Below, piece by piece: positions 16,033 to 33,589 of a stretch of 41,666 nt of DNA. Position 1 is the stretch's first letter. Each line of letters starts with the position of its first letter. Under the pieces are notes generated by a model. It searched no databases. It was not told the origin of the DNA and worked only from the letters and a program-made list of their open reading frames with translations. Position numbers and translations under genes: made by a program. The DNA is from Chloroflexota bacterium (GTDB lineage Bacteria; Chloroflexota; Anaerolineae; Anaerolineales; Anaerolineaceae), in contig JAJYIW010000003.1 of assembly GCA_021789855.1 (NCBI GenBank), forward strand, positions 1-41,666, written 5' to 3'.

Positions 16033-16061
16033 TTGTAATTTACCCTTAATTCGACTATACT
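16033..16061 (+). promoter_or_regulatory. Promoter of the dcw cluster (Pmra-like)
   Basis: TTGTAA (16033-16038)-N17-TATACT (16056-16061). Confidence 0.65.
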
Positions 16062-16070
16062 TTAGAGTAC

Positions 16071-16110
16071 AAGTGGTAGGAAGTGGATATTTGTGGGAAT
16101 AAGTGGATCG
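16071..16110 (+). promoter_or_regulatory. Four tandem MraZ-box-like repeats (10-bp period)
   Basis: AAGTGGTAGG / AAGTGGATAT / TTGTGGGAAT / AAGTGGATCG, contiguous and in register. Confidence 0.8.
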
Positions 16111-16129
16111 CCGGTCATCCCGGCGTTTT
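16109..16129 (+). terminator. Terminator-like hairpin in the mraZ 5' leader (candidate attenuator)
   Basis: CGCCGG-TCATC-CCGGCG followed by TTTTGCTTATTTT. Confidence 0.4.
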
Positions 16130-16154
16130 GCTTATTTTAGGAGACACAGAACAA

Positions 16155-16592
16155 ATGTTCCTCGGGCAATATGAGCACAACATCGATGAAAAAGGTCGCC
16201 TGACCATCCCGGCCCGATATCGTGAGCTGCTCAACGAGGGCGCCTATATTACCCGCGGATTTGATAAGAACCTGTACGTCCTGACAGCCACCTCCTTCCA
16301 ACACATTTATGATCAGGTCAACAGCACCAGTCTGACCAATGCTTCCTCCCGTTCGTTGCGCCATTTTCTGTTCGCCAATGCTGAACGGGTCGAAGTGGAT
16401 AAGGCTGGCCGAATCCTGATCCCCCAATTTCTTCGCGAGATTGCCCATCTCGACTCAAATGCCTTTGTCGTTGGCGCAGGCAGCTTCTTCGAAATCTGGT
16501 CGCCCGAAACGTGGACGCAACAAAACCAGCGCCTCAACGACGCAGATACAAACGCCGACCTTTACGCTGCTTTTGACCTCTCCGCAGCCTGA
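16155..16592 (+). CDS. mraZ: Transcriptional regulator MraZ
   Basis: MFLGQYEHNIDEKGRLTIPARYRELL... and VDKAGRILIPQFLREIAHLD; both SpoVT-AbrB-like halves present. ORF opens upstream at 16083; ATG at 16155 preferred. Confidence 0.96.
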   Translation: MFLGQYEHNIDEKGRLTIPARYRELLNEGAYITRGFDKNLYVLTATSFQHIYDQVNSTSLTNASSRSLRHFLFANAERVEVDKAGRILIPQFLREIAHLDSNAFVVGAGSFFEIWSPETWTQQNQRLNDADTNADLYAAFDLSAA

Positions 16593-16594
16593 AA

Positions 16595-17515
16595 ATGTCA
16601 GAGCTGCCGCACCTTCCTGTTCTTTACCAGGAAATTATACTATCGCTTCGTCCCTTTAGCCCGGGCCATTACATTGATGGTACGGTAGGAGCGGGTGGGC
16701 ATGCCTGGGGCATTCTGCAGGCCAGCCATCCAGCAGGTCGCCTCTTGGGCTTGGATGTCGATCCTCAGGCGCTTGAGCTGGCTCGCCGGCGACTATCCCC
16801 TTTTGGTGAACGGGTTAATCTGGTTCAGGCTTCTTACACCACACTGCGGAACCAGATGGCGAGCCTGGGATGGGCCTCAGTCGATGGGATCGTCTTGGAT
16901 CTGGGCGTGTCATCGATGCAGATTGACACCCCTGAACGAGGCTTTTCCTTCCAGTCGGATGGCCCCCTGGATATGCGCTTCGACCCGGCTCAATCGCTCA
17001 ATGCAGGGGCTCTGGTGAATGGCCTGCCAGAACGAGAGCTCGCCGATCTGCTCTGGCGCTACGGAGAAGAAGGCCACTCCCACCGGCTGGCTCGCGCCAT
17101 CGTCCAGGCCAGGCCGCTTCAATCCACCCGGCAGCTCGCTGAAGTAATTTCCAGGGCCACTCGCCAAAGGGGCAAAATTCACCCAGCCACACGAACGTTT
17201 CAGGCGTTACGCATCGCTGTGAATGAGGAGCTCCACGCCCTTGAATTGGTTTTACCTGCGGCGATCGACGCTCTGGCACCAGGGGGTCGATTAGCCATCA
17301 TCTCGTTTCATTCGCTCGAGGATCGCATGGTTAAACAGTTCGTCATCCGTGAAAGTCGCGACTGCATCTGCCCACCCGATCAACCCGTGTGTACCTGTGG
17401 CCACAAAGCCACCCTTAAAATCATTAACAAGCACCCTATCGAAGCCAGTCAGGAAGAGAAGGAGCTTAACACCCGTTCACGCAGCGCAAAGCTGCGCGTA
17501 GTTGAAAGAATTTAG
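16595..17515 (+). CDS. rsmH: 16S rRNA (cytosine(1402)-N(4))-methyltransferase RsmH
   Basis: LPVLYQEIILSLRPFSPGHYIDGTVGAGGHAWGIL, GVSSMQIDTPERGFSFQSDGPLDMRFD, HSLEDRMVKQF. Confidence 0.97.
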   Translation: MSELPHLPVLYQEIILSLRPFSPGHYIDGTVGAGGHAWGILQASHPAGRLLGLDVDPQALELARRRLSPFGERVNLVQASYTTLRNQMASLGWASVDGIVLDLGVSSMQIDTPERGFSFQSDGPLDMRFDPAQSLNAGALVNGLPERELADLLWRYGEEGHSHRLARAIVQARPLQSTRQLAEVISRATRQRGKIHPATRTFQALRIAVNEELHALELVLPAAIDALAPGGRLAIISFHSLEDRMVKQFVIRESRDCICPPDQPVCTCGHKATLKIINKHPIEASQEEKELNTRSRSAKLRVVERI

Positions 17516-17531
17516 GTGGCATGACTGTTGC

Positions 17532-18014
17532 ATGGAACAGACCATGACAAATCGACTTGTACAAGCTTACCGTCAGGCGCCTTGGCGAATCCAGATCCAA
17601 TGGATTGGCATTTTTGCCGTAGGGCTGCTCCTGGTAGCCCTCGTGGCAGGGTTTTACCTCAACATCACCACCCGCGCAGCCAACGCCGGCGCAGACATCC
17701 AATCGATGCTCTACCAGCAACAGGGCGAAGAGCGCGAAATTGCTGATTTAAATGCCCAGCTGGCGGAAATCACCTCGTCCAGTGCGATGGAAAAGCGCGC
17801 CGAGGCCTTAGGCTTTATCCCCATTGCGGTCGGGCAGCCCACTTACCTGGCTGTTCCTGGCTACGTCTCCGATCAAACGCCCAACCTGGCCCCTCCACCA
17901 TCCAACGCCATCGTCAATGCACCTCTAATTTTGCCCGACTACACCCAATCGTTGTGGGATTGGCTTTACAACAGCTTATCGCCCACCCTGACTAAAGGAA
18001 CGGTAAAGCCATGA
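17532..18014 (+). CDS. ftsL: FtsL-like division protein (single TM, short extracytoplasmic coiled coil)
   Basis: Position between rsmH and ftsI; one TM segment (IQWIGIFAVGLLLVALVAGFYL) then a heptad-like region (MLYQQQGEEREIADLNAQLAEITSSSAMEKRAEALGF). Confidence 0.75.
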   Translation: MEQTMTNRLVQAYRQAPWRIQIQWIGIFAVGLLLVALVAGFYLNITTRAANAGADIQSMLYQQQGEEREIADLNAQLAEITSSSAMEKRAEALGFIPIAVGQPTYLAVPGYVSDQTPNLAPPPSNAIVNAPLILPDYTQSLWDWLYNSLSPTLTKGTVKP

Positions 18015-19864
18015 ACCCTCCTCATGTTCTCCGTTACTACATCCTCAGCACGATCCTGGGGCTGGCCAGCTTCGCGATTATTTTTAAAATGGTAGATATC
18101 CAGCACAGCCCCTACGCGCAGGCCATTTTGAAAAAGGCCCTGATCTATGCCGATTCCGTGCAAATGGTTTACCCTGAGCGCGGCAATATTTATGATCAAC
18201 TAGGAAATTTGCTGGCCGGGAATAACACGGTGTACGAGGTGGGCATAGAAGTCGGCGGCGCCAACGCCCCTGAGCCGGATATTGGCTCGATCGCGGCTCA
18301 ATTGTCGGCCATTACCGGTAAAGATGCCGGCCAGATGATCACCAATTACATCAATAGCAAAAACAAGAACTTGCAATATGCCGTGCTGGTTGATTACGTC
18401 ACGCCCGACCAGTTAAAGACTCTCCAGGACGCCATAAAAGCCCAATCGGCCCAGGCTGGCAGAAGCAATAAATCCGATAAGGTGGGCATTGAAGCCCTGC
18501 ATTGGATCCCGCACCTGATTCGAACTTACCCGGAAAACGATGTGGCTTCCAACATCATCGGGTACTATCCTTTCCTGAGCACCAGCCAGCTTGAAAAGGT
18601 GGGGGACAAGGAAATAGCGGTCCCCGCCGCAGGTACGTATGGAGTCGAACAAAATTATAATGACCGCCTGGCCGGCACCCCCCAGTTGGAAACCATTCCC
18701 AACGATCCCTTGCAGGTCACCAATGTCCCTGAGGTTCCCCCTGGCGATAGCCTGATCCTGACCATTGATGTCCGTGTCCAGGCCGCCATGGAGCATATCC
18801 TCGACAAAGCCCTCAGAGATAGCGGGGCCGATTCCGGGACCATCATTGTGGAAAATCCGCGCACGGGTGAAATTCTGGCGATGGCCAACAGCCCCCGCCT
18901 CAACCCCAACCAGTATTGGGACTTCACCAAGATTTTCCCCAACCCCATCTATTTCAACCGCGCGGTAAGCGTCACCTACGAGCCCGGTTCTGTCTTCAAG
19001 GTCCTCACCATGGCCGGGGCGCTTGATTCAGGTACGGTAAAGCCGGACACAACCTTTTACGATAATGGCGTCTTCGAGTACGGTGGAGCCTACATCCATG
19101 ACTGGAACGGCGGCGCCTGGGGCGAGCAAACCATGACCGGCTGCATGGAGCATTCTCTCAATGTGTGCCTGGCCTGGGTGGCCACCAGGTTAGGCGCTAA
19201 CCGGTTTTATAATTACATCCAGTCTTTTGGAATTGGTCACACCACCGGCATCGACCTGGGAAACGAAGCCAATTATCCCCTTCGCCTCCCTGGCGAGGAT
19301 CTGTCGAGCACTGTGCCCAATTTCGTGAAATGGAGCGACATCGACCTGGCCACCAATGCCTTCGGACAGGGCCTGGCCGTTACCCCAATCCAGATGGTCA
19401 TGGCCGTCTCAGCGGTGGCCAATGACGGTAAAATGATGGCCCCGCATGTGCTGAAGGCCTTTGTCGAAAATGGCCGCCAGTATCCAACCGTTCCCCAGGT
19501 CGTGGGGCAACCGATCAGCGCAGCAACCGCCCACACCGAGACGGAGATGCTGGCTGTCTCCCTCGAAAAAGAATCGTCATCAGCCGAAGTGGCGGGTTAC
19601 CGGGTGGCCGGAAAAACTGGTACAGCCCAGATTGCCATGCCCTACGGCGGCTATTCCGACACCTTGACCAACGCTTCCTTCGTGGGATGGGGGCCGGTCG
19701 ACGATCCGCAGTTCCTGATTTATGTCTGGCTGGAAAAGCCCACCGCTTCCCAATGGGGCTCAGTGGTAGCCGCTCCGGTCTTCGCTGACGCCGTTAAAAG
19801 CCTGGTGGTATTAAGAAATATACCCCCAGACAGCGTCAGGAAACAATTACAGGCTAACCCTTAA
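18011..19864 (+). CDS. ftsI: Peptidoglycan transpeptidase, FtsI/PBP class B
   Basis: EPGSVFKVLTMAGAL (SxxK), HSLN (SxN), GKTGTAQIA (KTG); N-terminal TM anchor; no PASTA-like tail seen. Confidence 0.94.
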   Translation: MNPPHVLRYYILSTILGLASFAIIFKMVDIQHSPYAQAILKKALIYADSVQMVYPERGNIYDQLGNLLAGNNTVYEVGIEVGGANAPEPDIGSIAAQLSAITGKDAGQMITNYINSKNKNLQYAVLVDYVTPDQLKTLQDAIKAQSAQAGRSNKSDKVGIEALHWIPHLIRTYPENDVASNIIGYYPFLSTSQLEKVGDKEIAVPAAGTYGVEQNYNDRLAGTPQLETIPNDPLQVTNVPEVPPGDSLILTIDVRVQAAMEHILDKALRDSGADSGTIIVENPRTGEILAMANSPRLNPNQYWDFTKIFPNPIYFNRAVSVTYEPGSVFKVLTMAGALDSGTVKPDTTFYDNGVFEYGGAYIHDWNGGAWGEQTMTGCMEHSLNVCLAWVATRLGANRFYNYIQSFGIGHTTGIDLGNEANYPLRLPGEDLSSTVPNFVKWSDIDLATNAFGQGLAVTPIQMVMAVSAVANDGKMMAPHVLKAFVENGRQYPTVPQVVGQPISAATAHTETEMLAVSLEKESSSAEVAGYRVAGKTGTAQIAMPYGGYSDTLTNASFVGWGPVDDPQFLIYVWLEKPTASQWGSVVAAPVFADAVKSLVVLRNIPPDSVRKQLQANP

Positions 19865-19897
19865 TGACCTGAATGCAAGAGGTGACGGAGAGAAGTT

Positions 19898-21319
19898 TTG
19901 TTTACGCTAGCAGATAGCCTGGAAGCTCTTACGGGAAAACGCCCACCGGCTGCCGACCTCGCCATAACCGAGGCCGCAGTCGATTCACGCCAGGTCATCC
20001 CCGGCTCTTTGTTTGTTGCCCTTCCAGGTGAACACACCGATGGCCATGCTTACCTGGGAGATGCCTTCCAGGCAGGGGCTCACCTGGCCCTGGTTCAGAA
20101 CGATGTTTCCGCAGACTATCCCACGCTGGACCTGCGCAATGGCGTTCTCCCCGATCCCCTGGTGATCCCGCCGGCTCCATTTTGCCTTTGGGTGCATGAC
20201 AGCCTGCAAGCCTTACAGCAGATGGCCGGCTTTTGGCGGCGCAAGCAATCCTTGCGCGTCATCGGCATCACCGGCAGCGTGGGCAAATCCACCACCAAGG
20301 AGGTGGTCGCCGATGTCCTCAGCCAGCGCTACCGCACCCTGAAAAATCCTGGCAACATGAACAACGAGATCGGCCTGCCCCTCACCCTGTTGCGCCTGAC
20401 TTCCGCCCACGAACGCGCTGTCCTCGAGATGGGCTTTTATGTTCCCGGTGAAATCCGCTTCCTTTGCGACCTGGCCCTTCCATCGGTAGGCGTGGTGACC
20501 AACGTGGGCACCGTCCACGCAGAACGAGCCGGCTCTCAGGAAGCCATCGCCCGCGGAAAAACCGAGCTGGTAGAAGCTCTCCCGCCTGCTCCTGACGGCG
20601 TAGCGATCCTCAATTATGACGACCCGTGGGTGCGCCCCATGGCCGAGAAGACCCGCGCCAGGGTGTTCTATTATGGTCTCGATCCTCAGGCTGATTTATG
20701 GGCTGACGAGATTGAAGGGTTTGGCCTGGAAGGCATTCGCTTCCGCCTGCATTATGCCAACGAAGTGATCCATTTGCGTATCCCCCTGATCGGTCGCCAT
20801 TCGGTCCACACTGCCCTGCGCGCTTCCGCCGTGGCCCTGGTGGAAAACCTGACCTGGGAAGAAATTGTTTCCGGCCTGGGGATGGGCCACAACCAGCTTC
20901 GCCTGGTCACGGTGCATACCCGCAGGGGCGCTCTGGTTCTGGACGACACGTATAACGCTTCGCCCGAATCGACCCTGGCCGCCTTGAACCTCCTGGCCGA
21001 CCTCCAGGGGCGAAAAGTGGCCGTCCTGGGTGATATGCTCGAGCTGGGCCCCTATGAAAGGCAGGGGCATGAAATGGTCGGCGTCCGCGCTTCGGAAGTC
21101 GCCGACGAGTTAATCGTGTATGGAGACCGGGCCGCCACGATCGCTGAGGCCGCTCGCCAGAATGGCATGGATATAGAGGCCATTCACGCTTTTGAAGACG
21201 TCCCGGCGATCATTGATTACCTGGACAAAACCCTGGCCCAGGGTGACGTCGTCCTGGTCAAGGGATCGCACGGGATGCGTATGGATCGCATCGTCGCTGC
21301 CCTGGAGGCTGCCGCATGA
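19898..21319 (+). CDS. murF: UDP-N-acetylmuramoyl-tripeptide--D-alanyl-D-alanine ligase
   Basis: VIGITGSVGKSTTKEVVADVL, NMNNEIGLPLTLL, DDTYNASPESTLAAL; TTG start at 19898. Confidence 0.95.
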   Translation: MFTLADSLEALTGKRPPAADLAITEAAVDSRQVIPGSLFVALPGEHTDGHAYLGDAFQAGAHLALVQNDVSADYPTLDLRNGVLPDPLVIPPAPFCLWVHDSLQALQQMAGFWRRKQSLRVIGITGSVGKSTTKEVVADVLSQRYRTLKNPGNMNNEIGLPLTLLRLTSAHERAVLEMGFYVPGEIRFLCDLALPSVGVVTNVGTVHAERAGSQEAIARGKTELVEALPPAPDGVAILNYDDPWVRPMAEKTRARVFYYGLDPQADLWADEIEGFGLEGIRFRLHYANEVIHLRIPLIGRHSVHTALRASAVALVENLTWEEIVSGLGMGHNQLRLVTVHTRRGALVLDDTYNASPESTLAALNLLADLQGRKVAVLGDMLELGPYERQGHEMVGVRASEVADELIVYGDRAATIAEAARQNGMDIEAIHAFEDVPAIIDYLDKTLAQGDVVLVKGSHGMRMDRIVAALEAAA

Positions 21320-22308
21320 AAGACACAGCACTGGCTATCGCCTTGAGTGGTCTCAGTTTTATGCTCGCGGTCATCTGGGGCGCTCCGCTGATTCAGGTGC
21401 TCAAGCACTTCAATATCGGTAAATTGATCCGCATTGAAGGCCCTGAATCGCACCTGCGGAAATTGGGCACGCCTACCATGGGCGGGGTCATGATCCTCAT
21501 GCCCGTGGCGCTGATCACCGTCCTGCTCAATGCCGCCTCTCTCATCGGCTTGAACGTGCTGGGGCGCTCCGTGCTGGTGCCGTTGCTGGCCCTGGGTGGA
21601 TACGCCATCATGGGCGCCATTGACGATTGGGAAGGGATCCGCGGCCCACGGCGCGGCCTGGGAATGCGTGCACGCACCAAGTTTATCATCCAGGTGATCA
21701 TGGCCGTCGCCATCGCCTTTGGTCTCCAATACCTCTTACGAGTCCCGCAGTTGTATTGGCCCGGCTTAAAAGTGCCCATCGACCTGGGCGTGCTCTATAT
21801 CCCCACGGCGACCTTCATCATTGTGGGCATGTCCAATGCGGTTAATTTTACCGATGGGCTGGACGGGCTGGCAGGCCTTATTTCTGCCACGGCTTTCGCC
21901 GCGTACGGCTTGATTGCCCTGTCCCAGGGGCAGGTCTTCCTTGGCCGGTTTTGCTTCACCCTGGTCGGCGCCCTGTTCGGCTTCCTGTGGTTCAACGTCC
22001 ACCCGGCCGAGCTGATCATGGGCGATACCGGCTCCCAGCCCCTCGGCGCGGCGTTGGGTATCGTGGCTTTGATGACCGGCCAGTGGCTGCTCCTCCCGCT
22101 GATTGCCATCATCCCGGTGAGCGAAGCCCTCAGTGTGGTAATCCAGATTGTCTATTTCCGCTTCACCCACGGGAAAAGGTTCTTCAAAATGGCGCCTATC
22201 CATCACCATTTCGAGCTCTTGGGCTGGAGCGAGACCCAGGTGGTCCAGCGTTTCTGGCTGATCAGCCTCATGTTTGCCTTGTTGGGCGTGGCGGTATCGG
22301 TGGTATGA
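21316..22308 (+). CDS. mraY: Phospho-N-acetylmuramoyl-pentapeptide-transferase
   Basis: LGTPTMGGVMIL, NFTDGLDGLAG, MGDTGSQPLG, APIHHHFELLGWSETQVVQRFW. Confidence 0.97.
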   Translation: MKDTALAIALSGLSFMLAVIWGAPLIQVLKHFNIGKLIRIEGPESHLRKLGTPTMGGVMILMPVALITVLLNAASLIGLNVLGRSVLVPLLALGGYAIMGAIDDWEGIRGPRRGLGMRARTKFIIQVIMAVAIAFGLQYLLRVPQLYWPGLKVPIDLGVLYIPTATFIIVGMSNAVNFTDGLDGLAGLISATAFAAYGLIALSQGQVFLGRFCFTLVGALFGFLWFNVHPAELIMGDTGSQPLGAALGIVALMTGQWLLLPLIAIIPVSEALSVVIQIVYFRFTHGKRFFKMAPIHHHFELLGWSETQVVQRFWLISLMFALLGVAVSVV

Positions 22309-22309
22309 G

Positions 22310-23695
22310 ATGAAAAAAGATTGGGAAGGTCAGCGCGTGTTAATCATTGGAGCCGCCCGCCAGGGCCAGGCTCTGGCGCGCTACCTGGCCGGTAAAGGCG
22401 CCCGGGTGACCCTCAACGACCAGCTTTCTTCCATCGACCTGTCCAACGTGGTGGCGGGACTGAGCGGCCTGGGCATCACGTTTGCCCTGGGTGGGCACCC
22501 CCTGGAGCTGCTGGACAGCGCCGACCTGGTCTGCCTGTCGGGCGGTGTGCCCTTGAGCCTGCCCCTGGTCGTCGAAGCGACCCGGCGCGGCCTGCCCCTG
22601 TCGAACGACTCGCAGCTCTTTATGGAAATTGCGCCCTGCCCGGTGATCGGCATCACCGGATCGGCCGGCAAAACCACCACCACCACGCTGGTTGGGCGCA
22701 TCGCTGCCGCAGGCTTGCCGCAAGGCCGCCGCGCCTGGGTCGGCGGCAACATCGGCCTGCCGATGATCGACCACGTGGACGAAATGAAACCCGATGACCT
22801 GGTCGTACTGGAGTTATCCAGCTTTCAGCTAGAACAAATGACCCTCTCTCCCCGCGTGGCAGCGGTGCTTAATATCACCCCGAACCACCTGGATCGACAC
22901 GGCAGCATGGAGGCCTACACAGCGGCGAAGGCACACATCTTGCTCCACCAGGATCGAGGAGATGTCGCCGTGTTAAACCATGAAGATGAAGGGTCGTGGG
23001 CCCTGGCAGGCCTGGTGCAAGGCCGTCTGGTTACTTTCAGCTTGAACCCACCTCCCCCCGGACAGGCAGGCGTTTACCTGGCGCATGGGTGGTTATCTCT
23101 GCAAGACGGCGACCGGCAGGTCGAGATCATGCCCCAGTCGCTGATCGCCCTGCGCGGCGCGCATAACCTGGCCAATGTCCTGGCAGCCTGCGCCATCGCC
23201 TATGCTGCCGGCCTTCCCATTTCAGCCATGCCCGCTGGCATCCAGGGTTTTGCCGGTGTAGCGCACCGCCTCGAATTCGTCCGTGAGTGGCGCGGGGCAG
23301 CCTGGTACAACGACTCGATCGCCACGGCTCCTGAGCGCAGCATGGCCGCGATTCGCTCTTTCAGCGAACCGCTGGTGCTGCTGGCGGGTGGCCGGGATAA
23401 GAATTTGCCCTGGGATGAGTTTGCCAGCCTCGCCCACCAGCGTGTGGATCACCTGGTTGTGTTCGGCGAAGCCGCCGAAATAATTCTGTCCGCCCTGGGG
23501 CTGGCCCATTCCGGGCAGCGCCCCTATACCATTACCCGGTGCACCGGGCTCCAACAGGCCGTCCAGGCAGCCGCTTCTTTAGCCAAACCCGGCGATGTGG
23601 TCTTGCTATCGCCCGGGGGAACCAGTTTCGATGAATTCCGCGATTTTGAAGAACGCGGGGAGTGTTTTCAAAAATGGGTGAAGGAACTTTCGTAA
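22310..23695 (+). CDS. murD: UDP-N-acetylmuramoylalanine--D-glutamate ligase
   Basis: VIGITGSAGKTTTTTLVG, VLELSSFQLEQM, NITPNHLDRHGSMEAY, YNDSIATAPE, GGRDKNLPW. ATG at 22310 preferred over the ORF opening at 22274. Confidence 0.96.
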   Translation: MKKDWEGQRVLIIGAARQGQALARYLAGKGARVTLNDQLSSIDLSNVVAGLSGLGITFALGGHPLELLDSADLVCLSGGVPLSLPLVVEATRRGLPLSNDSQLFMEIAPCPVIGITGSAGKTTTTTLVGRIAAAGLPQGRRAWVGGNIGLPMIDHVDEMKPDDLVVLELSSFQLEQMTLSPRVAAVLNITPNHLDRHGSMEAYTAAKAHILLHQDRGDVAVLNHEDEGSWALAGLVQGRLVTFSLNPPPPGQAGVYLAHGWLSLQDGDRQVEIMPQSLIALRGAHNLANVLAACAIAYAAGLPISAMPAGIQGFAGVAHRLEFVREWRGAAWYNDSIATAPERSMAAIRSFSEPLVLLAGGRDKNLPWDEFASLAHQRVDHLVVFGEAAEIILSALGLAHSGQRPYTITRCTGLQQAVQAAASLAKPGDVVLLSPGGTSFDEFRDFEERGECFQKWVKELS

Positions 23696-24900
23696 AACCT
23701 GTTGCGTCTCTAAAAGCTAAAACAACCAGCCGGCTGCTCAGTCTGCATATTGATGTCCCTTTGCTCCTGATTGTCTTCTCGCTGTGCGTGTTTGGTCTGT
23801 TGATGGTCTATTCGGCCAGCAGCTCAACCTTCATTTTTACCCGCCAGGTGGAATGGATGCTGATTGGCCTGGTGGTAATGGTTGGCCTGACCCTCATCGA
23901 TTACCATAAGCTTCGCCCGTTTCTGCTGCCGGTATGGATCGGCACACTCATTGCCCTGGCCGCAGTGTTATTCATCAACGATATGCGCTACAATGCCGCT
24001 CGCACCCTCAACAATGGCTCCTTCCAGCCTTCTGAGCTGGCCAAGCTGGTCATCATCATCTACCTGTCTTTCTGGCTGTCCATTCGCCAGGATAAACTCA
24101 ACGACATCTATATCGGCCTGATCCCCCTGGCCTTCATCCTGGGAGCCACCGGCGGGTTTATCTATCTGCAGCCTGACCTGAGCGCTACCCTCACGATCTT
24201 CGCGCTGGGATTTATGCTGTTCTTCCTGGCAGGGGGATCGCTGCGCCAGCTTGTGCTGGTAGCGGTCGTTGCTCTCCTGGCCGGTTGGTTAATCGTCGTG
24301 CTGAACCCGGGAGGCACAGCCAGCGCCCGCATTAACAGCTACCTGGTTGGCATCCGCGATCCGTTGGAGGGCTCCAACCAGCTCCAGCGTTCCCTTGAGG
24401 GGATTATCAAGGGCGGCCTGTTCGGCGTGGGCATTGGTAAGGCGGATATCAAGTGGAGCGGCCTCCCCGTCCCTTCGCGCGACAGCATCTTTGTGATTGT
24501 GGTCGAGGAGACCGGCCTGGTGGTTGCCTCGTTGCTGACGCTGATGTATGCCGGTTTGGTCTGGCGAGGCATGGTCATTGCCCGGCGCGCCAAAGATCAA
24601 TTGGGATCGTTGCTCGCCGCCGGTATGACTTTCTGGTTGGCGTTTGAAGCCGTGATTAACATGGGCATGGTTGTCGGTCTATTTCCTATTGCGGGCAACG
24701 CTCTGCCCTTTATGAGCGCAGGAGGTTCCAGCCTGGTCGTATCCATGGCCGCCATTGGCGTCATCATGAGCGTGGCGCGCCAATCTGAGGTAGTAAAGGA
24801 GTCAGAAGGGAGAACATTCAGTGCGGTTGTTGATTTGCGCCGGTGGGACCGGAGGCGGCGTGTATCCCGCCCTCGCCGTCCTGCAGGCCCTCGGGAATGA
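23674..24900 (+). CDS. ftsW: Lipid II polymerase/division protein FtsW
   Basis: SEDS-family multi-pass protein; LMVYSASS, QPSELAKLVIIIYL, QPDLSATLTIFALGF, GLFPIAGNALPFMSAGGSSLVVSM. Confidence 0.94.
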   Translation: MGEGTFVKPVASLKAKTTSRLLSLHIDVPLLLIVFSLCVFGLLMVYSASSSTFIFTRQVEWMLIGLVVMVGLTLIDYHKLRPFLLPVWIGTLIALAAVLFINDMRYNAARTLNNGSFQPSELAKLVIIIYLSFWLSIRQDKLNDIYIGLIPLAFILGATGGFIYLQPDLSATLTIFALGFMLFFLAGGSLRQLVLVAVVALLAGWLIVVLNPGGTASARINSYLVGIRDPLEGSNQLQRSLEGIIKGGLFGVGIGKADIKWSGLPVPSRDSIFVIVVEETGLVVASLLTLMYAGLVWRGMVIARRAKDQLGSLLAAGMTFWLAFEAVINMGMVVGLFPIAGNALPFMSAGGSSLVVSMAAIGVIMSVARQSEVVKESEGRTFSAVVDLRRWDRRRRVSRPRRPAGPRE

Positions 24901-25924
24901 TATGGAGCAGGTGCTTTGGGTTGGCAGTCAGGGTGGCATTGAAGCAGACCTGGTGAATCGCAGCCATATTCCATTTGCTGCGATTCCCGCTGCAGGCTTG
25001 CACGGCGTGGGTGCGCGCCAGTTGCCGCGTAACCTGTGGCGGTTAGGGCAGGGCGTGCTGGCCTCTCACCATATCCTGCGTGCCTTCAAGCCGGACGTGC
25101 TGCTTTTCACCGGCGGCTACGTGGCATTCCCCATGGCTGTCGCCGGCCGCGCCGTTCCCACCTTGCTCTACGTTCCCGATATTGAGCCGGGTTGGGCGTT
25201 AAAAACCCTCGGCCGCTTCGCTGATCACATCGCAGTGACCAGCGATGAAACCTTTAAGTATTATTTGTCGCATAAACCCACCTCCGTGACGGGTTACCCC
25301 ACCCGGGCCGGCCTGGCCGACGTCCACCCTGACCAGGCGCGCAAGGCCCTTCACCTGGATTGCGATCACCCGGTCCTCCTCGTGGCAGGCGGCAGCACCG
25401 GCACCCGTTCCATCAGCCGCGCCCTCCTGTCCATCCTGCCGGAATTGTTACAGGATACCCAGGTCGTCCATATCACCGGACAGCGGGATTGGGATGAGGT
25501 GCAGGCTGCTACCGCTAACCTTCCCGACGACAGGGCCAGCCGTTATCACGCTTACCCCTACCTCCACGAGATGGGCCATGCCCTGGCCGCCGCTGACCTG
25601 GCCGTTTCTCGCGCGGGGGGTTCCACTCTCGGAGAGTACCCCCTCTTCGGCCTGCCGGCCATACTGGTGCCTTATCCCTATGCCTGGCGTTATCAAAAAG
25701 TTAACGCCGATTTCCTCTCCAATCATGGAGCCGCGGTTACCCTGGAAGACGCTCGCCTTAAAGACCAGCTCTTGCCGACCATCCATGCCCTGCTTGGCGA
25801 CACCGTGCGCCTGGAAACCATGCGCACCGCCATGAAAAGCCTGGCGACCCCCCAGGCCGCTTCCAGGCTGGCAGACCTGGTGAAGGAGCTGGGTAACCGC
25901 TCTGCAGACAGGAGGCGCCGCTGA
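24821..25924 (+). CDS. murG: UDP-N-acetylglucosamine--undecaprenyl-pyrophosphoryl-MurNAc-pentapeptide GlcNAc transferase
   Basis: GTG start; LLICAGGTGGGVYPALAVLQAL, VLLVAGGSTGTRSISRAL, AVSRAGGSTLGEYPLFGLPAILVPYPYA. Confidence 0.95.
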   Translation: MRLLICAGGTGGGVYPALAVLQALGNDMEQVLWVGSQGGIEADLVNRSHIPFAAIPAAGLHGVGARQLPRNLWRLGQGVLASHHILRAFKPDVLLFTGGYVAFPMAVAGRAVPTLLYVPDIEPGWALKTLGRFADHIAVTSDETFKYYLSHKPTSVTGYPTRAGLADVHPDQARKALHLDCDHPVLLVAGGSTGTRSISRALLSILPELLQDTQVVHITGQRDWDEVQAATANLPDDRASRYHAYPYLHEMGHALAAADLAVSRAGGSTLGEYPLFGLPAILVPYPYAWRYQKVNADFLSNHGAAVTLEDARLKDQLLPTIHALLGDTVRLETMRTAMKSLATPQAASRLADLVKELGNRSADRRRR

Positions 25925-25927
25925 GCC

Positions 25928-26458
25928 ATGGTGAGCCTGATCTTCCTCTTCTGGATGTATGTGATCCTTTTCGCCGTGATCGGCGGGATGCGCGGGTGGG
26001 CCAAAGAAATCCTGGTCACCTTCAGCGTCATCCTGGCCTTATTTATCATCACGGTGATCGAGCGGTTTGTCCCGTTCGTCCGCGATGCCATTGCCGGCAT
26101 AGCCCAATTTTGGCTCCGCGTGGCGATCTTGCTGGCCCTGGTGTTTTTCGGGTACCAGGGCCCCAATATTCCCCGCCTGGCGGGCACCAATCGCTTCGTG
26201 CGCGAACGGTTTCAGGATATTTTATTGGGCGTTTTCCTGGGCGCCGTCAACGGCTTCTTTATTTTCGGATCATTCTGGTATTTCCTGGATCAGGCCAAAT
26301 ATCCCATCGCATTGATTGCGGCCCCCGATCCAGCCACCTCACTCGGCCAGGCTGCCTTGACCATGATAAAATACCTGGCCCCGGCCTGGCTGGGAGCGCC
26401 CGCGATTTATTTCGCCGTAGCCCTCGCTTTTGTTTTTGTATTGGTGGTGTTTATCTAA
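25928..26458 (+). CDS. CvpA-like multi-pass membrane protein embedded in the dcw cluster
   Basis: 176 aa, N-terminal AVIGGMRGWAKEILVTFSVILALFI resembles CvpA topology (hydrophobic-RG-hydrophobic); sits between murG and murC with immediate adjacency to murC (TAA|ATG). Confidence 0.7.
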   Translation: MVSLIFLFWMYVILFAVIGGMRGWAKEILVTFSVILALFIITVIERFVPFVRDAIAGIAQFWLRVAILLALVFFGYQGPNIPRLAGTNRFVRERFQDILLGVFLGAVNGFFIFGSFWYFLDQAKYPIALIAAPDPATSLGQAALTMIKYLAPAWLGAPAIYFAVALAFVFVLVVFI

Positions 26459-27871
26459 ATGACTAAAGTGCATCTGGTTGGAATCGGTGGTAGCGGCATG
26501 TCGGCCATCGCTCGGGTCTTGCTCGAAAGCGGCGAGACGGTGAGCGGTTCGGACCGGCTGTCTTCACCTATGACGGAAGCCCTGCGCGCCGCCGGCGTGC
26601 GCCTCTCCATCGGCCACGCCGCGGAAAACGTTCAAGGCGCCGATGTGGTAGTGCGCTCTTCCGCCGTCCCCGATGACAACCCCGAAGTGGTAGCCGCCAG
26701 GGCCGCCGGCATCCCCGTGTTGAAGCGCGCTGAATTCCTGGGCCAGTTGATGAAAAACCGCCAGGTCGTCGCCATCGCCGGCACCCACGGCAAGACCACC
26801 ACCACCGCCATGACCGCCTGGATGCTGGTCAGCGCCGGTAAAGCCCCTTCTTTTATCATCGGCGGTGTGCTGAAAAATCTGAACACCAACGCCCACGCCG
26901 GCCGCGGGGATACCTTCGTCATCGAAGCCGACGAATATGACTCGATGTTCCTCGGCCTCGCCCCTTCCGTCGCGGTCATCACCAATATCGACTACGACCA
27001 TCCCGATTACTACCCCACCCCGGCAGCCTACCAAAAGGCCTTCGTCGATTTTACCGGCAAGCTCATCCCGGGCGGTTGGCTGTTGCTTTGCCACGACGAC
27101 CCCGGTGCCCTCAACCTTTACCAGCGCCTTGCGGAGAATGCTGCCTTCCCAGGCAGCCTGGCCAGCTACGGCCTGTCCTCTGCTCCCAAGGAAGCTTCCT
27201 ATTACCAGGCCAGCCAGCTCACCCCGAGCGCTGCCGGCGGGTTCAGCTTCACCGCCACTTACCAGGCCGGCGCAGGCCAGCCCGAGTCACTGGCGCAGGT
27301 CAGCCTGCAGGTCCCTGGCGAGCACAACGTCCGCAACGCCCTGGCCGCCCTGGCCGTCGGCCACCACCTGGGCCTGCCCGTGGCGCAGGCCGCTGGCGCT
27401 CTCAGCGCCTACCAGGGCAGCGCCCGCCGCTTTGACATCGCCGGCGAGCAACAGGGGATTGTCCTGATCAACGATTACGCCCACCACCCCACCGAGATCA
27501 GCGCCACCCTGGCCGCTGCCAGGGCGCGCTACCCCGGGCGCCGCATCTGGGCAGTCTGGCAGCCCCATACCTATTCCCGCACCCGCGCGATGACCGCCGG
27601 GTTTGCCGCTGCCTTCGAGGCCGCCGACCAGGTGGTGATCACCGAGATTTATGCCGCCCGCGAGCCGGCCGGCGCTGCCGTATCCGCCGCAAGCCTGGTC
27701 GCTGGGATGACCCATCCTGGCGTCCATTTCATCCCCACCCTGGAGGAAGTGACCAGCTACCTGCTCGCCCACCTCGCCCCCGGCGACGTCGTCCTGGTGC
27801 TCTCGGCCGGCGACGCCGATCAGGTCAACCGTGACCTGCTGACCGGTCTCCAACAACGGGAGGAAAGATAA
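26459..27871 (+). CDS. murC: UDP-N-acetylmuramate--L-alanine ligase
   Basis: VHLVGIGGSGMSAIARVLLESGETVSGSD, AIAGTHGKTTTTAMTAWML, NDYAHHPTEISATLAAAR. Confidence 0.97.
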   Translation: MTKVHLVGIGGSGMSAIARVLLESGETVSGSDRLSSPMTEALRAAGVRLSIGHAAENVQGADVVVRSSAVPDDNPEVVAARAAGIPVLKRAEFLGQLMKNRQVVAIAGTHGKTTTTAMTAWMLVSAGKAPSFIIGGVLKNLNTNAHAGRGDTFVIEADEYDSMFLGLAPSVAVITNIDYDHPDYYPTPAAYQKAFVDFTGKLIPGGWLLLCHDDPGALNLYQRLAENAAFPGSLASYGLSSAPKEASYYQASQLTPSAAGGFSFTATYQAGAGQPESLAQVSLQVPGEHNVRNALAALAVGHHLGLPVAQAAGALSAYQGSARRFDIAGEQQGIVLINDYAHHPTEISATLAAARARYPGRRIWAVWQPHTYSRTRAMTAGFAAAFEAADQVVITEIYAAREPAGAAVSAASLVAGMTHPGVHFIPTLEEVTSYLLAHLAPGDVVLVLSAGDADQVNRDLLTGLQQREER

Positions 27872-27872
27872 G

Positions 27873-28817
27873 ATGCCCGTAAAGCTATCTCTCCCCCTCG
27901 ATGCCATCCGCGCTGCCTTTGGCGAACACCTCCAGGAAAACGTGGTGCTGGCCAACTACACCACCGCCCATGTCGGCGGCCCAGCCGACGCCCTCCTGCC
28001 AGTCAACACGCTGGATGAGCTGGAGCAGGCGGTATCCAAGCTCTGGGAGCTTCAGGCGCCGTTCACCATTCTGGGCAGCGGCTCCAACATCCTGGTCAGC
28101 GATGCCGGCCTGCACGGTGTCGCCGTGCTCAACCGCGCGCGCAACGTTAAAATCGACAGCCGCAGCATAGCTCCCAGCGTGTGGGCCGAATCGGGAGCCA
28201 ACCTGGGGCACATGGCGCGCCAGGTGGCCTTACGCGGCTTGAGCGGCCTGGAATGGGCGACCGGCATTCCCGGCAGCGTCGGCGGGGCCGTGTATGGCAA
28301 CGCCGGGGCTCACGGCGGCGATATTAATCATTGTTTAATCCTGGCCGAAATCTTGCACCCTGTCCAGGGGAGGGTTGCCTGGACTGTGGAGCAAATGGCA
28401 TACGATTATCGCAGCAGCTTGTTGAAACGCGAGCACAGCCCTGCAGTGATCCTGAGCGCCCGCCTGCGCCTCGAACCCGGCAATCCTGCCGAGATCCGCA
28501 CCAGAATGGACACTTTTTCAGAACACCGCCGGCGCACCCAACCCCCTGGGGCTACCATGGGCTCGATGTTTAAGAATCCCCCTGGCGACTTCGCTGGGCG
28601 GTTGATCGAGGCTGCCGGGCTAAAAGGTTCGACCATCGGCGGGGCTGAAATCAGCCCCATGCACGCCAATTTTTTCGTTAATCACGGTACGGCCACGGCC
28701 AGGGACATTTACCAGTTGATCCACCGGGCGCAAAAAACGGTCGCTGACCGCTTTGGCATCCAGCTCGAGCTGGAGATCGAATTATTGGGCGATTTTAACG
28801 GAAATGGAAAAGGATGA
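27873..28817 (+). CDS. murB: UDP-N-acetylenolpyruvoylglucosamine reductase
   Basis: TTAHVGGPADALLPV, ILGSGSNILVSDAGL, GIPGSVGGAVYGNAGAHGGDI, GSMFKNPPGDFAGRLIEAAGLKG. Confidence 0.96.
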   Translation: MPVKLSLPLDAIRAAFGEHLQENVVLANYTTAHVGGPADALLPVNTLDELEQAVSKLWELQAPFTILGSGSNILVSDAGLHGVAVLNRARNVKIDSRSIAPSVWAESGANLGHMARQVALRGLSGLEWATGIPGSVGGAVYGNAGAHGGDINHCLILAEILHPVQGRVAWTVEQMAYDYRSSLLKREHSPAVILSARLRLEPGNPAEIRTRMDTFSEHRRRTQPPGATMGSMFKNPPGDFAGRLIEAAGLKGSTIGGAEISPMHANFFVNHGTATARDIYQLIHRAQKTVADRFGIQLELEIELLGDFNGNGKG

Positions 28818-29935
28818 TGGGCGATAAGATTCGCATGGGTGTGATTTTTGGAGGCCGTTCAGGCGAGCATGAAGTCTCGTTGATGTCCGCCCGCTCGCTG
28901 TTGCAAGTGCTGGACCCTCAAAAATACGCCGTGGTTCAGATTGGCATTACCCACACCGGCGCCTGGGTGGCCGGTGATAACGTCCTGGAGGCCCTCCAGA
29001 GCGACCAGGTCGATGCCTTGCCGCCCGCCGCTATTTTCCCCGACCCCTCCCGCCGGGCGCTCTATACCCTCTCACCCGGCCAGTATGGTGACATCCTCGC
29101 CCTCTTCAGCCAGTTGGACGTGGTCTTTCCCATCTTGCATGGCACTTTTGGTGAAGATGGCACCCTCCAGGGCCTGCTTGAGATGGCCGACCTGGCATAC
29201 GTCGGCGCTGGGGTGCTCGGCTCATCGGTTGGCATGGACAAGGCCCTGTTCAAGGATGTGATGCGCGCCAACAACATTCCGGTGCCCCGCTCCATCACCG
29301 TGACCCGCCGCCAGATACAGAGCCAGATGGATCAGGTGCTCGACCAGGCGGAATCCCTGGCCGCTTACCCGCTCTTTGTCAAGCCGGTCAACCTGGGCTC
29401 TTCGGTCGGCGTGAGCAAAGTGTGCTCGCGTTCCGATTTATACGAAGGTATCCTGGATGCCGCCCGGTATGACCGGCGCGTCCTGATCGAACAGGGGATC
29501 AACGCCCGCGAGATTGAGGTCAGTGTGCTGGGAAACGATGCACCTATGGCTTCCGTGCCGGGTGAAATCATCCCATCGGACGACTTTTACTCCTACCGCG
29601 CCAAGTACCTGGATGAAACCTCACAGCTCATCATCCCGGCGGAGCTGCCAGAAACCGTGGCGGATGCCCTGCGCGCTTATGCCGTGCGTATTTTCCAGGC
29701 AGTCGATTGCGCCGGGATGGCCAGGGTCGATTTTTTGCTGGAAAGGGATACCAACGAAATTTTTGTCAGTGAAATTAACACCATCCCGGGGTTCACCCGC
29801 ATCAGCATGTACCCCAAGTTGTGGCAGGCCAGCGGGATTGGTTATCCCGAGCTGGTCGACCGGCTGATTGAGCTGGCGTTCGAACGCAAAGCCGAGCGGG
29901 ATCACACCGAGCGCCAGTATGGAAGGAAAGCATGA
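28814..29935 (+). CDS. ddl: D-alanine--D-alanine ligase
   Basis: MGVIFGGRSGEHEVSLMSARS, LHGTFGEDGTLQGLLEMADLAYVGAGVLGSSVGMDK, EINTIPGFTRISMYPKLWQASG. Confidence 0.97.
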   Translation: MMGDKIRMGVIFGGRSGEHEVSLMSARSLLQVLDPQKYAVVQIGITHTGAWVAGDNVLEALQSDQVDALPPAAIFPDPSRRALYTLSPGQYGDILALFSQLDVVFPILHGTFGEDGTLQGLLEMADLAYVGAGVLGSSVGMDKALFKDVMRANNIPVPRSITVTRRQIQSQMDQVLDQAESLAAYPLFVKPVNLGSSVGVSKVCSRSDLYEGILDAARYDRRVLIEQGINAREIEVSVLGNDAPMASVPGEIIPSDDFYSYRAKYLDETSQLIIPAELPETVADALRAYAVRIFQAVDCAGMARVDFLLERDTNEIFVSEINTIPGFTRISMYPKLWQASGIGYPELVDRLIELAFERKAERDHTERQYGRKA

Positions 29936-31047
29936 GCCGCCCGACTCAGAAACCCCTCTCGCGCGCCGATGAGCTGCGCTCAAAGCGCCGCCCGCGCCAG
30001 GATCACCTGCAATACAGTCAGGATCAGCTCAAGCGCGGCGCCACCCCAGGACGGGCAGCCGTGTCGCACCCGGTCATCTCACGCGGAACATTCCCTGCCG
30101 GCGATGTCCGCCAGGGCCGCGGCATGCCGAACCTGCGCGGCGTTACCAACCTGCGTGGCAGCGCTGCTTATCACGGCGCCACCACCGTCCCGGTGCACCA
30201 GCGCGCTCAGAGCCGGGTAAACCGCCAGTTTACCATCCCGCTCTCCACCACCGGCGCCGAATTACGCCTGCCGGTGATCCCTGACCTCCATCTGGGTTGG
30301 CGGCTCATTTCCGCCGCCCTGGTCTTCTGCGTCGCCGCCCTCCTGATCGCCCTGTGGAACGCACCCCTCTTCCAGCTTGGCCAGGCCAGGCTGGAAGGCG
30401 CCAAACGCCTGACTGCTGCCGATATCAACACTGTCCTCAAGGTGGATGGCCTGTCGGTCGTCCAGGCCTCGCCGCGCCAGATGGAGCGCGATCTGCAAGC
30501 CGCCTTCCCCGACCTGGCCTCCGTTCACGTCAGCGTCGGCTTGCCTGCCTCGCTCACCGTCCAGGTCACCGAGCGCCAGCCCGTCATCGCCTGGAAAGTG
30601 GGCGACTCCGTCCAGTGGGTGGATCAGAACGGCATGGCTTTTCCCGTCCGTGGGACAGTCAAAGGCCTGGTCGAAGTGGATGCCCAGGCTGCTCCCGCGG
30701 CCTCCCTTCCAGCGCCTTCCACCGGCGATGCAACCGTCAGCGCCGCTGTAACCACCGCCCAGCCGAAGGCGCCTGCACCGTTCATCGACCCGACCCTGGT
30801 CAAAGCCATCCTGACCCTCAGCCCCCAGGTACCCCAGGGCACGCCAATCCTGTATAGCCAGGATTACGGGTTGGGTTGGAATGATCCCCAGGGCTGGCAA
30901 GTTTATTTTGGTAATAGCCTGGACAACATGGATGAGAAGCTGACCATGTACAAAGCTATCGTGGCAGACCTGAACAAGCAAAACATCCATCCCAAAATTA
31001 TCAGCGTGCAGTTTCCGCGCGCCCCATTTTATCGTCTGGAGCAGTGA
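29932..31047 (+). CDS. ftsQ: Division protein FtsQ/DivIB with long Arg/Gly-rich N-terminal region and Ala/Pro-rich insert
   Basis: Single TM (ISAALVFCVAALLIALW) followed by POTRA-like LFQLGQARLEGAKRLTAADINTVLKVDGLSVVQASPRQMERDLQAAFPDLASVHVSVGLPASLTVQVTERQPVIAWKVG; position ddl-ftsQ-ftsA. Confidence 0.9.
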   Translation: MSRPTQKPLSRADELRSKRRPRQDHLQYSQDQLKRGATPGRAAVSHPVISRGTFPAGDVRQGRGMPNLRGVTNLRGSAAYHGATTVPVHQRAQSRVNRQFTIPLSTTGAELRLPVIPDLHLGWRLISAALVFCVAALLIALWNAPLFQLGQARLEGAKRLTAADINTVLKVDGLSVVQASPRQMERDLQAAFPDLASVHVSVGLPASLTVQVTERQPVIAWKVGDSVQWVDQNGMAFPVRGTVKGLVEVDAQAAPAASLPAPSTGDATVSAAVTTAQPKAPAPFIDPTLVKAILTLSPQVPQGTPILYSQDYGLGWNDPQGWQVYFGNSLDNMDEKLTMYKAIVADLNKQNIHPKIISVQFPRAPFYRLEQ

Positions 31048-31051
31048 CACC

Positions 31052-32284
31052 ATGATCGAACCTATTTTAGTTGGGATTGATATAGGCACCACAAAGATCT
31101 GTACCCTGGTCGCCCGGGTCGAAGGCGAGCGCAATTTGCGCATCCTCGGCGTGGGAATCGAGCCCTCGCAAGGGATCAAAAAAGGGACGGTGGTGGATCT
31201 GGCTGCGGCGTCACAGGCTGTCGCGCGTTCGCTCGACAAGGCCCAACGGTCATCCGGGCTGGAGATTCACTCCGCGCTGGTTAGCCTGGCTGGTTCGCAC
31301 GTCTCTTCGGTCAACAGTCGCGGCGTGGTGGGCATCTCCGGTCGCGTCATCGAACAGGATGACATCTTGCGCGCCCTGGATGCCGCCCAGGCAGTAGCCA
31401 TCCCCCACAACCGTGAAGTGATCCACGTGATCCAGCGCGGTTTTATCATCGATGGTCAGGATGGCATCCGCATGCCCATCGGCATGCACGGTTATCGCCT
31501 GGAAGTAGAGGCACACATCATCACCGCCGCAGCGGCCACCGTCGAAAATCTACGCCAGTGCGTGGCGGCCTCGGGGGTAGAAGTTTCCCAGTTCGTCCTC
31601 AACCCCCTGGCTTCGGCTGAAGTCGTGCTCTCCGAGACCGAGCGCCAGATGGGCGCCGTGGTGTGCGACATCGGGGGCGGCACCACCGATATGGCCATCT
31701 ACATCGAAGGGGACGTCTGGCATACCATGGTCCTGGCCGTCGGGGGCAACCACATCACCTCCGATATCGCTCATGGCCTGCGCCTCTCGATCAGCCAGGC
31801 CGAAGAGCTGAAGAAACAGCATGGTTTTGCCGTGGAAGATGAAGTACGCCCCGAAGAATCCTTCAACGTGCGCGCTTTCGGAGAAGAGAAACCCGTGCAG
31901 GTCAGCCGGGCCGAGCTGGCCAACATCATTGAAGCCCGCGTTGAAGAAATTTTCTTACTCGTCCTCCAGGAGATCAAGCGCTCCGGCTACGACGGTCTGC
32001 TTCCTGCTGGAATGGTTCTTACCGGGGGCACCAGCCTCCTGCCCGGCATCCGCAGCCTGGCCAGCCGCGTGATGGGCCTGCCCGTTCGCATTGCCCGCCC
32101 GGAGAACTTGATCGGCTTAACCGACCAGCTCAACTCGCCCGCCTATTCCACCAGCGTGGGCTTGCTGAATTGGGCGCTCTTAATGAATGAGACCAATCCC
32201 GAAAACATCAGCGTGGGTTCAGACTCGCGCAACGTGATCGATATCGGGCGGCTCAAAGGATGGTTAAAAAAGCTCTTGCCATAA
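31052..32284 (+). CDS. ftsA: Division protein FtsA
   Basis: LVGIDIGTTKICTLVARVEG, GAVVCDIGGGTTDMAIYIEGDV, LTGGTSLLPGIRSLASRVMGLPVRIARP. Confidence 0.96.
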   Translation: MIEPILVGIDIGTTKICTLVARVEGERNLRILGVGIEPSQGIKKGTVVDLAAASQAVARSLDKAQRSSGLEIHSALVSLAGSHVSSVNSRGVVGISGRVIEQDDILRALDAAQAVAIPHNREVIHVIQRGFIIDGQDGIRMPIGMHGYRLEVEAHIITAAAATVENLRQCVAASGVEVSQFVLNPLASAEVVLSETERQMGAVVCDIGGGTTDMAIYIEGDVWHTMVLAVGGNHITSDIAHGLRLSISQAEELKKQHGFAVEDEVRPEESFNVRAFGEEKPVQVSRAELANIIEARVEEIFLLVLQEIKRSGYDGLLPAGMVLTGGTSLLPGIRSLASRVMGLPVRIARPENLIGLTDQLNSPAYSTSVGLLNWALLMNETNPENISVGSDSRNVIDIGRLKGWLKKLLP

Positions 32285-32374
32285 TCATCTGGCATGAGTT
32301 TACGCGTTTGAGGAGAACAAACCGTAATTGTCTATTCGAAGTTTCACATCTGATCTGAGAGGAGAATTTTAATC

Positions 32375-33589
32375 ATGGAACCTAATCAATCACCAGTCGA
32401 AACCTTTGCTCGTATCAAAGTGGTTGGCGTGGGCGGCGGAGGCTGCAACGCCGTCAACCGCATGATCGACGAAGGACTATCCGGCGTCGAGTTTATCACC
32501 ATCAATACCGACGCCCAGGCATTGCTCCTGTCCAAAGCCGCCACGCGCGTTCGCATCGGCGATAAAGTGACGCGCGGGCTCGGCGCAGGCGGGAACCCCG
32601 AGATGGGGCGCAAGGCCGCTGAAGAATCAGCCGAAGAATTATACGAGGTATTGAAGGGCAGCGACATGGTCTTCGTCACCGCCGGCATGGGCGGCGGCAC
32701 CGGCACCGGCGCGGTGCCCATCGTAGCCCAGATTGCCAAAGAAGTCGGCGCACTCACCATCGGCGTAGTGACCCGGCCCTTCACCTTTGAGGGCGCCCGC
32801 CGTCAAAAGGTGGCCGAGGAAGGCACCAACCTGCTCAAGGATCATGCCGATACCCTCATCGTTATCCCCAACGACCGCCTCCTCCAGATTGTGGATAAGC
32901 GCGCCAGCCTGCAAGATGCCTTCCGCATGGCCGATGACGTGCTGCACCAGGGCATCCAGGGGATCTCCGAGCTGATCACCGTCCCCGGCCTGATCAACCT
33001 GGACTTCGCCGATGTGCGCACGATTATGTCGGAAGGCGGCGCAGCCCTCATGGCGGTCGGCACGGCATCGGGCGAGGATCGCGCCCGCGTGGCGGCGGAA
33101 ATGGCTATTTCCAGCCACCTGCTGGACGTCACCATCGATGGCGCTCGCGGCATCCTCTTCAACGTCACCGGCGGGCCTAACCTGACCCTCTTCGAGGTCA
33201 ACCAGGCCGCGGCCATCATTAAAGAAACCGCTCACCCGGATGTCAACCTGATCTTCGGCGCGGTGATCGATTCCAACCTGGGCGAAAATATTCGCATCAC
33301 GGTCATTGCCACGGGTTTTGACCGCGCGGGCGTGCACCCCGTCGTGGAGACACAGAAGCCACGCGAAGAAGGCCATTCACGTCCACGCCCGGACGATCAC
33401 GTAACCCGGCCTGACAATGCCGCTATGACCCCGGCCCCGGCGTATAAGCCAGCCGCTTACTCCGTTCAGCCGGGCATCCAGGAAAATGCTCAAGGCGGTT
33501 CCCTGCAGGAGACTTTCTCCACCCGGGTGAACACCGATGAATTAGACATACCCACATTCCTGCGGAAACGCCAGCAGTCTTCACGCTGA
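32375..33589 (+). CDS. ftsZ: Division protein FtsZ
   Basis: [41 protein letters not shown] (tubulin signature), C-terminal peptide [13 protein letters not shown]. Confidence 0.98.

Follow-up and report, generated by a model that had tools for sequence, protein, structure and literature searches.

What is the function of four G-rich 10-mers that follow one another without a gap between a putative promoter and mraZ, the first gene of the dcw cluster, in a member of the Anaerolineales? The repeats lie in a window of 41,666 nucleotides from the phylum Chloroflexota (contig JAJYIW010000003.1, forward strand). By MraZ, the closest named relatives of this genome belong to Anaerolineae and Anaerolineales. 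The sequence-only reading had taken them for a MraZ operator that subjects the whole dcw cluster to autoregulation. Comparison bears this out: the repeats are kept before mraZ orthologs in the order and the phylum, no array lies before rsmH where mraZ is missing, and the boxes match the sites of Mollicutes, Burkholderia cenocepacia and Escherichia coli. The repeats are very probably the operator of MraZ, and autorepression of the dcw cluster by MraZ is a prediction that the comparisons strongly support. A literature search found no study of MraZ autoregulation in Chloroflexota.

The promoter, the repeat array and mraZ

On direct read of the sequence, the four contiguous 10-mers at 16071-16110, downstream of TTGTAA-N17-TATACT, are exactly as first described. 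The features of the locus are as follows.

16033..16061, + strand: promoter, with a -35 element TTGTAA (16033-16038), a 17-nt spacer and a -10 element TATACT (16056-16061), called from sequence and conservation in leaders
16071..16080, + strand: predicted MraZ box 1, AAGTGGTAGG (sequence; shuffle test; kept in relatives)
16081..16090, + strand: predicted MraZ box 2, AAGTGGATAT (same evidence)
16091..16100, + strand: predicted MraZ box 3, TTGTGGGAAT (same evidence)
16101..16110, + strand: predicted MraZ box 4, AAGTGGATCG (same evidence)
16109..16125, + strand: stem-loop CGCCGG-UCAUC-CCGGCG of the leader RNA, conserved among relatives and adjoining box 4 (fold; covariation in 77 leaders; G.U bias)
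16139..16143, + strand: probable Shine-Dalgarno sequence AGGAG, outside the stem-loop core (sequence; unpaired in the centroid fold)
16148..16154, + strand: AGAACAA motif just 5' of the start codon, conserved in the order as GAACNN or GCACAA (leader alignment)
16155..16592, + strand: mraZ, 145 aa, gene of the proposed repressor (Pfam PF02381, 111 bits, two domains; orthologs in 39 of 41 relatives)
16595..33589, + strand: dcw cluster, the proposed regulated unit (closely packed genes on the same strand; Pfam)

The GTGG cores of the boxes start at 16073, 16083, 16093 and 16103. This arrangement is not due to chance: four consecutive AAGTGG-N4 units with at most three mismatches occur once in the window and in none of 100 dinucleotide shuffles, and the three-fold pattern, again with at most three mismatches, has its sole occurrence in the 3.4-Mb draft genome at this array. 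The promoter matches the consensus at 9 of 12 positions; since a shuffled region would be expected to contain 0.5 sites of this kind, its assignment rests on conservation. Transcription would start at about 16068. The GTG of box 2, at 16083, shares an open reading frame with mraZ; it was ruled out as the start codon because relatives align from MF[LM]G at 16155. The near-invariance of GAACNN or GCACAA immediately 5' of the mraZ start (alignment positions G65, A67 and C68 are invariant or nearly so) exceeds what a Shine-Dalgarno sequence requires. A GAAC-AAAU-GUUC hairpin around the start codon was considered and dropped, as many relatives read GCAC, which breaks the pairing.

The mraZ product contains two PF02381 stretches, each with the D-x-x-G-R motif of the family (DEKGR and DKAGR), matches solved MraZ chains, and shares residues D11, K13, R15, D82, G85 and R86 invariantly with 17 relatives. 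For the more recent MraZ structures 9QLG, 9QLR and 9SX6, a literature search yielded no paper. An ABC-transporter ATPase (L003, 1369-2430, - strand, contig C94 of G000) carries a C-terminal MraZ/AbrB-like stretch that scores 23.4 bits, barely above the cut-off.

From mraZ (16155) to ftsZ (33589), the cluster lies on one strand in the order mraZ, rsmH, ftsL-like, ftsI-like PBP, murF, mraY, murD, ftsW, murG, a 176-aa ORF, murC, murB, ddl, ftsQ, ftsA-like and ftsZ; genes packed so closely on the same strand would probably be co-transcribed. The membrane-like 176-aa ORF (25928-26455, + strand) has no Pfam match. Convergent to ftsZ is a short alanyl-tRNA synthetase gene (33740-35545, - strand, 601 aa), whose product has the catalytic and SAD domains and no further domain that we could find.

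Conservation of the array across the phylum

The proposed check of the operator, conservation of the repeats upstream of orthologous mraZ genes, was performed on 101 distinct mraZ upstream regions from 40 relatives and 80 named loci, mostly from Anaerolineales with some close kin, and on 56 mraZ leaders from the rest of Chloroflexota. The repeats were found in all 101 of the former and in 48 of the latter. At least two copies of GTGG stand in exact 10-bp register in 101/101 leaders of Anaerolineales and kin and at least three in 93/101; base-shuffled controls contain two in-register copies in 39 of 2020 cases and three in 0 of 2020, counts that are not probabilities, as related sequences are not independent. 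Outside the order, the 48 of 56 leaders with at least three in-register copies represent 35 of 38 families, and none of 2800 shuffles of these leaders has an array. The box profile in the order is A-N-A-A-A-GTGG, i.e., AAAGTGG-N3, with the next box 10 bases further on. A few mraZ leaders contain no array: those of G058 and G154 have no box and that of G086 has one.

The converse comparison involved 14 Chloroflexota genomes with rsmH present and no MraZ match, several of them incomplete drafts in which single absences are uncertain. No in-register GTGG pair was found within the ~600 nt searched before rsmH in any of these 14 genomes, which represent eight families, and this set agrees with boxes that exist for MraZ. 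Across 41 genomes, the three-fold GTGG pattern falls mostly in mraZ leaders, and the few other matches look scattered; a MraZ regulon with a single site is likely by this measure.

Three features that mark a MraZ operator are found here: direct repeats with a GTG core, spaced by 10 bp, in three or more copies; a position between the promoter and mraZ; and conservation before orthologs together with absence where mraZ has been lost. This sequence evidence extends predicted MraZ autoregulation to the whole phylum, and the control provided by mraZ loss ties the boxes to MraZ.

Two further observations concern similar genes and repeats. Four genomes of one Anaerolineales family (G035, G289, G330 and G303) carry an additional MraZ-type gene that starts with TTG (L154-L157), and the GTGG boxes are absent from these second copies; the palindrome upstream of them, of the type TGGTCAT-NN-ATGACCA, suggests a different regulator. 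In G030, tandem GTGGACATTC 10-mers occur at several places (contigs C15, C28, C36 and C53) and seem to be a repeat of another kind rather than MraZ sites.

Register of the array with the -10 box

A promoter of the form TTG-N16-18-TANNNT lies just 5' of the array in 99 of the 101 leaders. The first GTGG follows the -10 hexamer immediately (0 nt) in 63 of these 99, after 10 nt in 27 and after 20 nt in 3; the exceptions have spacings of 9 nt (three leaders), 1 nt (two leaders) and 11 nt, the last found in the window itself, whose array is one base off the usual register. Because 93 of 99 first boxes begin 0, 10 or 20 nt from the -10 hexamer, the array extends over the start site and into the footprint of RNA polymerase.

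This arrangement bears on how MraZ would act. The sequence-only reading had placed the repeats downstream of the likely start and suggested roadblock-type repression; bound MraZ would then halt elongating polymerase rather than block initiation. The window by itself fits such a mode, in that the inferred start precedes all four of its canonical boxes. The fit does not carry over to the relatives: 63 of 99 leaders have their first box directly against the -10 hexamer, and the array keeps register with that hexamer in 93, and we regard a roadblock as unlikely. The phase-locking of the array to the -10 box and its overlap with the start site favour a block of initiation by MraZ.

We infer MraZ binding, repression and the mode of blocking from these comparisons. 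In the proposed mechanism, MraZ rings would bind the 10-bp repeats with one GTGG box per subunit and would cover DNA that begins where the -10 box ends and reaches about +40, keeping RNA polymerase from starting. MraZ would thereby hold down the expression of its own gene and of the downstream dcw genes. With MraZ off, the transcript would consist first of the copied boxes and then of a stem-loop that ends 25-29 nt 5' of the start codon.

A conserved stem-loop in the mraZ leader

Covariation of the 8-bp stem was assessed in 77 leaders aligned by plain MAFFT. Of all cells, 96.7% are paired; shifting the partner by 1 to 3 columns lowers this to 33.8-50.9%. Double-change cells number 35, versus 6.7 ± 5.2 in shuffles, and compensatory changes occur at six of the eight stem pairs. 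G.U pairs occupy 55 cells and A.C mismatches 2, and this G.U excess points to a structure in the coding-strand RNA rather than a DNA palindrome. In divergent relatives, a stem of other sequence occupies the same place: GATGAAGGTCGGA/TCCGACCTTCATC in G013, AGCGCC/GGCGCT in G015 and AGCCGGAGC/GCTCCGGCT in G026. The loop varies from 3 to 12 in length, and in the present genome the structure can be extended to about 16098-16136. In the centroid fold of the window, the stem-loop leaves the Shine-Dalgarno sequence unpaired. The stem ends 25-29 nt before the ATG (26-27 nt in 61 of 77 leaders), whereas its distance to the last box is more variable, so the stem-loop keeps its place relative to the start codon and not relative to the operator.

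A covariance model was built from the array and the leader together; as it includes the boxes, its matches describe the leader as a whole. It finds one place per genome, always 5' of mraZ, in 35 of 41 relatives, and in a sample of the phylum it matches 23 of 25 Anaerolineales, 1 of 13 further members of the class and 0 of 263 from the rest of the phylum. Within the order, G017 and G025 score below the model threshold, yet a stem can be seen by eye in both; none was seen in G038. Hairpins of the bare form CGCCGG...CCGGCG abound in some genomes; an origin of the stem as a mobile repeat was rejected, since the model finds a single place per genome, at mraZ. No match to the leader was obtained in Rfam at E values up to 1. 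By its covariation and distribution, the stem-loop is an RNA hairpin in the leader of a division operon that is conserved, order-specific and uncatalogued, and is new here; the sequence-only reading had not noted it.

Termination is one role that such a hairpin might have. As a weak intrinsic terminator or attenuator, it would leave dcw transcription to be decided after initiation, as in the Rhodobacter UpsM leader (PMC5089854), and the window, in which the stem is followed by TTTTGCTTATTTT, was called terminator-like. The combination of a GC-rich stem and a U-run is seen in the window only and is not conserved in the relatives: across the 77 leaders, the 10 nt that follow the stem are 35% T, and in 54 leaders no T run exceeds two within the 12 nt from the stem end. 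A terminator also has no need of the fixed distance between stem and ATG. Attenuation by this hairpin is improbable, even slightly more so than the roadblock considered above.

We tentatively propose, with some doubt, that the stem-loop instead shields or insulates the leader, acting on mRNA stability or ribosome access. Given the usual ribosome footprint, its constant spacing would put it immediately beyond a ribosome bound at the start codon. There it could conceivably act as a barrier, either making the message more stable or holding the transcribed G-rich boxes off the ribosome site. Whether Anaerolineales possess a second, RNA-based cis-acting control of dcw genes atop MraZ repression, tuning the stability or translation of division mRNA, seems to us an evenly balanced matter. 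The leader stem-loop is directly testable.

Other readings of the repeats

The G-rich repeats might be conserved because they fold into a G-quadruplex with control over the dcw promoter. This has been proposed for PmraZ of Staphylococcus aureus, where a G-quadruplex is reported downstream of the mraZ promoter; conserved motifs of this kind have been described before mraZ in other bacteria as well (PMC11796246). The window has four GTGG runs. However, 65 of the 101 arrays lack even four GG runs (loops of at most 12 nt), so a quadruplex cannot be the conserved feature in the order, and four GGG runs occur in none of the 101. Neither the exact 10-bp spacing nor the AAA before GTGG is required for a quadruplex, and no array is present where mraZ is absent. 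The comparative data argue against reading these G-rich arrays as quadruplexes, which makes that explanation highly improbable; the S. aureus motif and the MraZ boxes of that species may be the same bases. Least credible of all are DnaA boxes (TGTGGATAA type) tying division-gene expression to replication: boxes 2 and 4 read AGTGGATAT and AGTGGATCG and GTGGATAA occurs in some distant Chloroflexota arrays, but of the 325 boxes in the order just 8 agree with the 9-mer at 8 or 9 positions, DnaA boxes do not need a strict 10-bp register, and the array is linked to the presence of mraZ.

Comparison with known MraZ operators and dcw leaders

The MraZ operator reading can be set beside four described systems. 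In E. coli (Eraso et al. 2014, cited in PMC8475190), as in the window, mraZ is the first dcw gene and is preceded by four GTGG-type boxes in 10-bp register, which we read in K-12 as AGTGGGAAAT TGTGGGGCAA AGTGGGAATA AGGGG. Unlike here, the E. coli boxes are GTGGG; 7 nt separate TAAACT, our reading of the -10 box, from the first of them, and the leader is just 38 nt (PMC5089854), with no comparable stem-loop in the alignment.

The Mollicutes site AAAGTG[T/G]-N3 (Fisunov et al. 2016, as excerpted in PMC8475190) has the same box core as the AAAGTGG-N3 of Anaerolineales and, in that excerpt, likewise occurs as a single site per genome. Judged against it, Anaerolineales differ in that the boxes number three to five, keep a fixed phase with the -10 box and precede a stem-loop. 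In B. cenocepacia, binding of MraZ has been demonstrated at PmraBc, whose four 7-nt repeats with 3-nt spacers lie downstream of the -10 box and overlap the start site, as here; the sections of that report consulted describe no leader stem-loop (PMC7761207).

A structured 5' leader before mraZ is shared with UpsM of Rhodobacter sphaeroides, where a 268-nt leader contains a terminator that yields an sRNA (PMC5089854); the leader in the window would be ~87 nt, and most relatives are without a U-tract. Judged by its sequence, the array is a new example of an already known type of MraZ operator.
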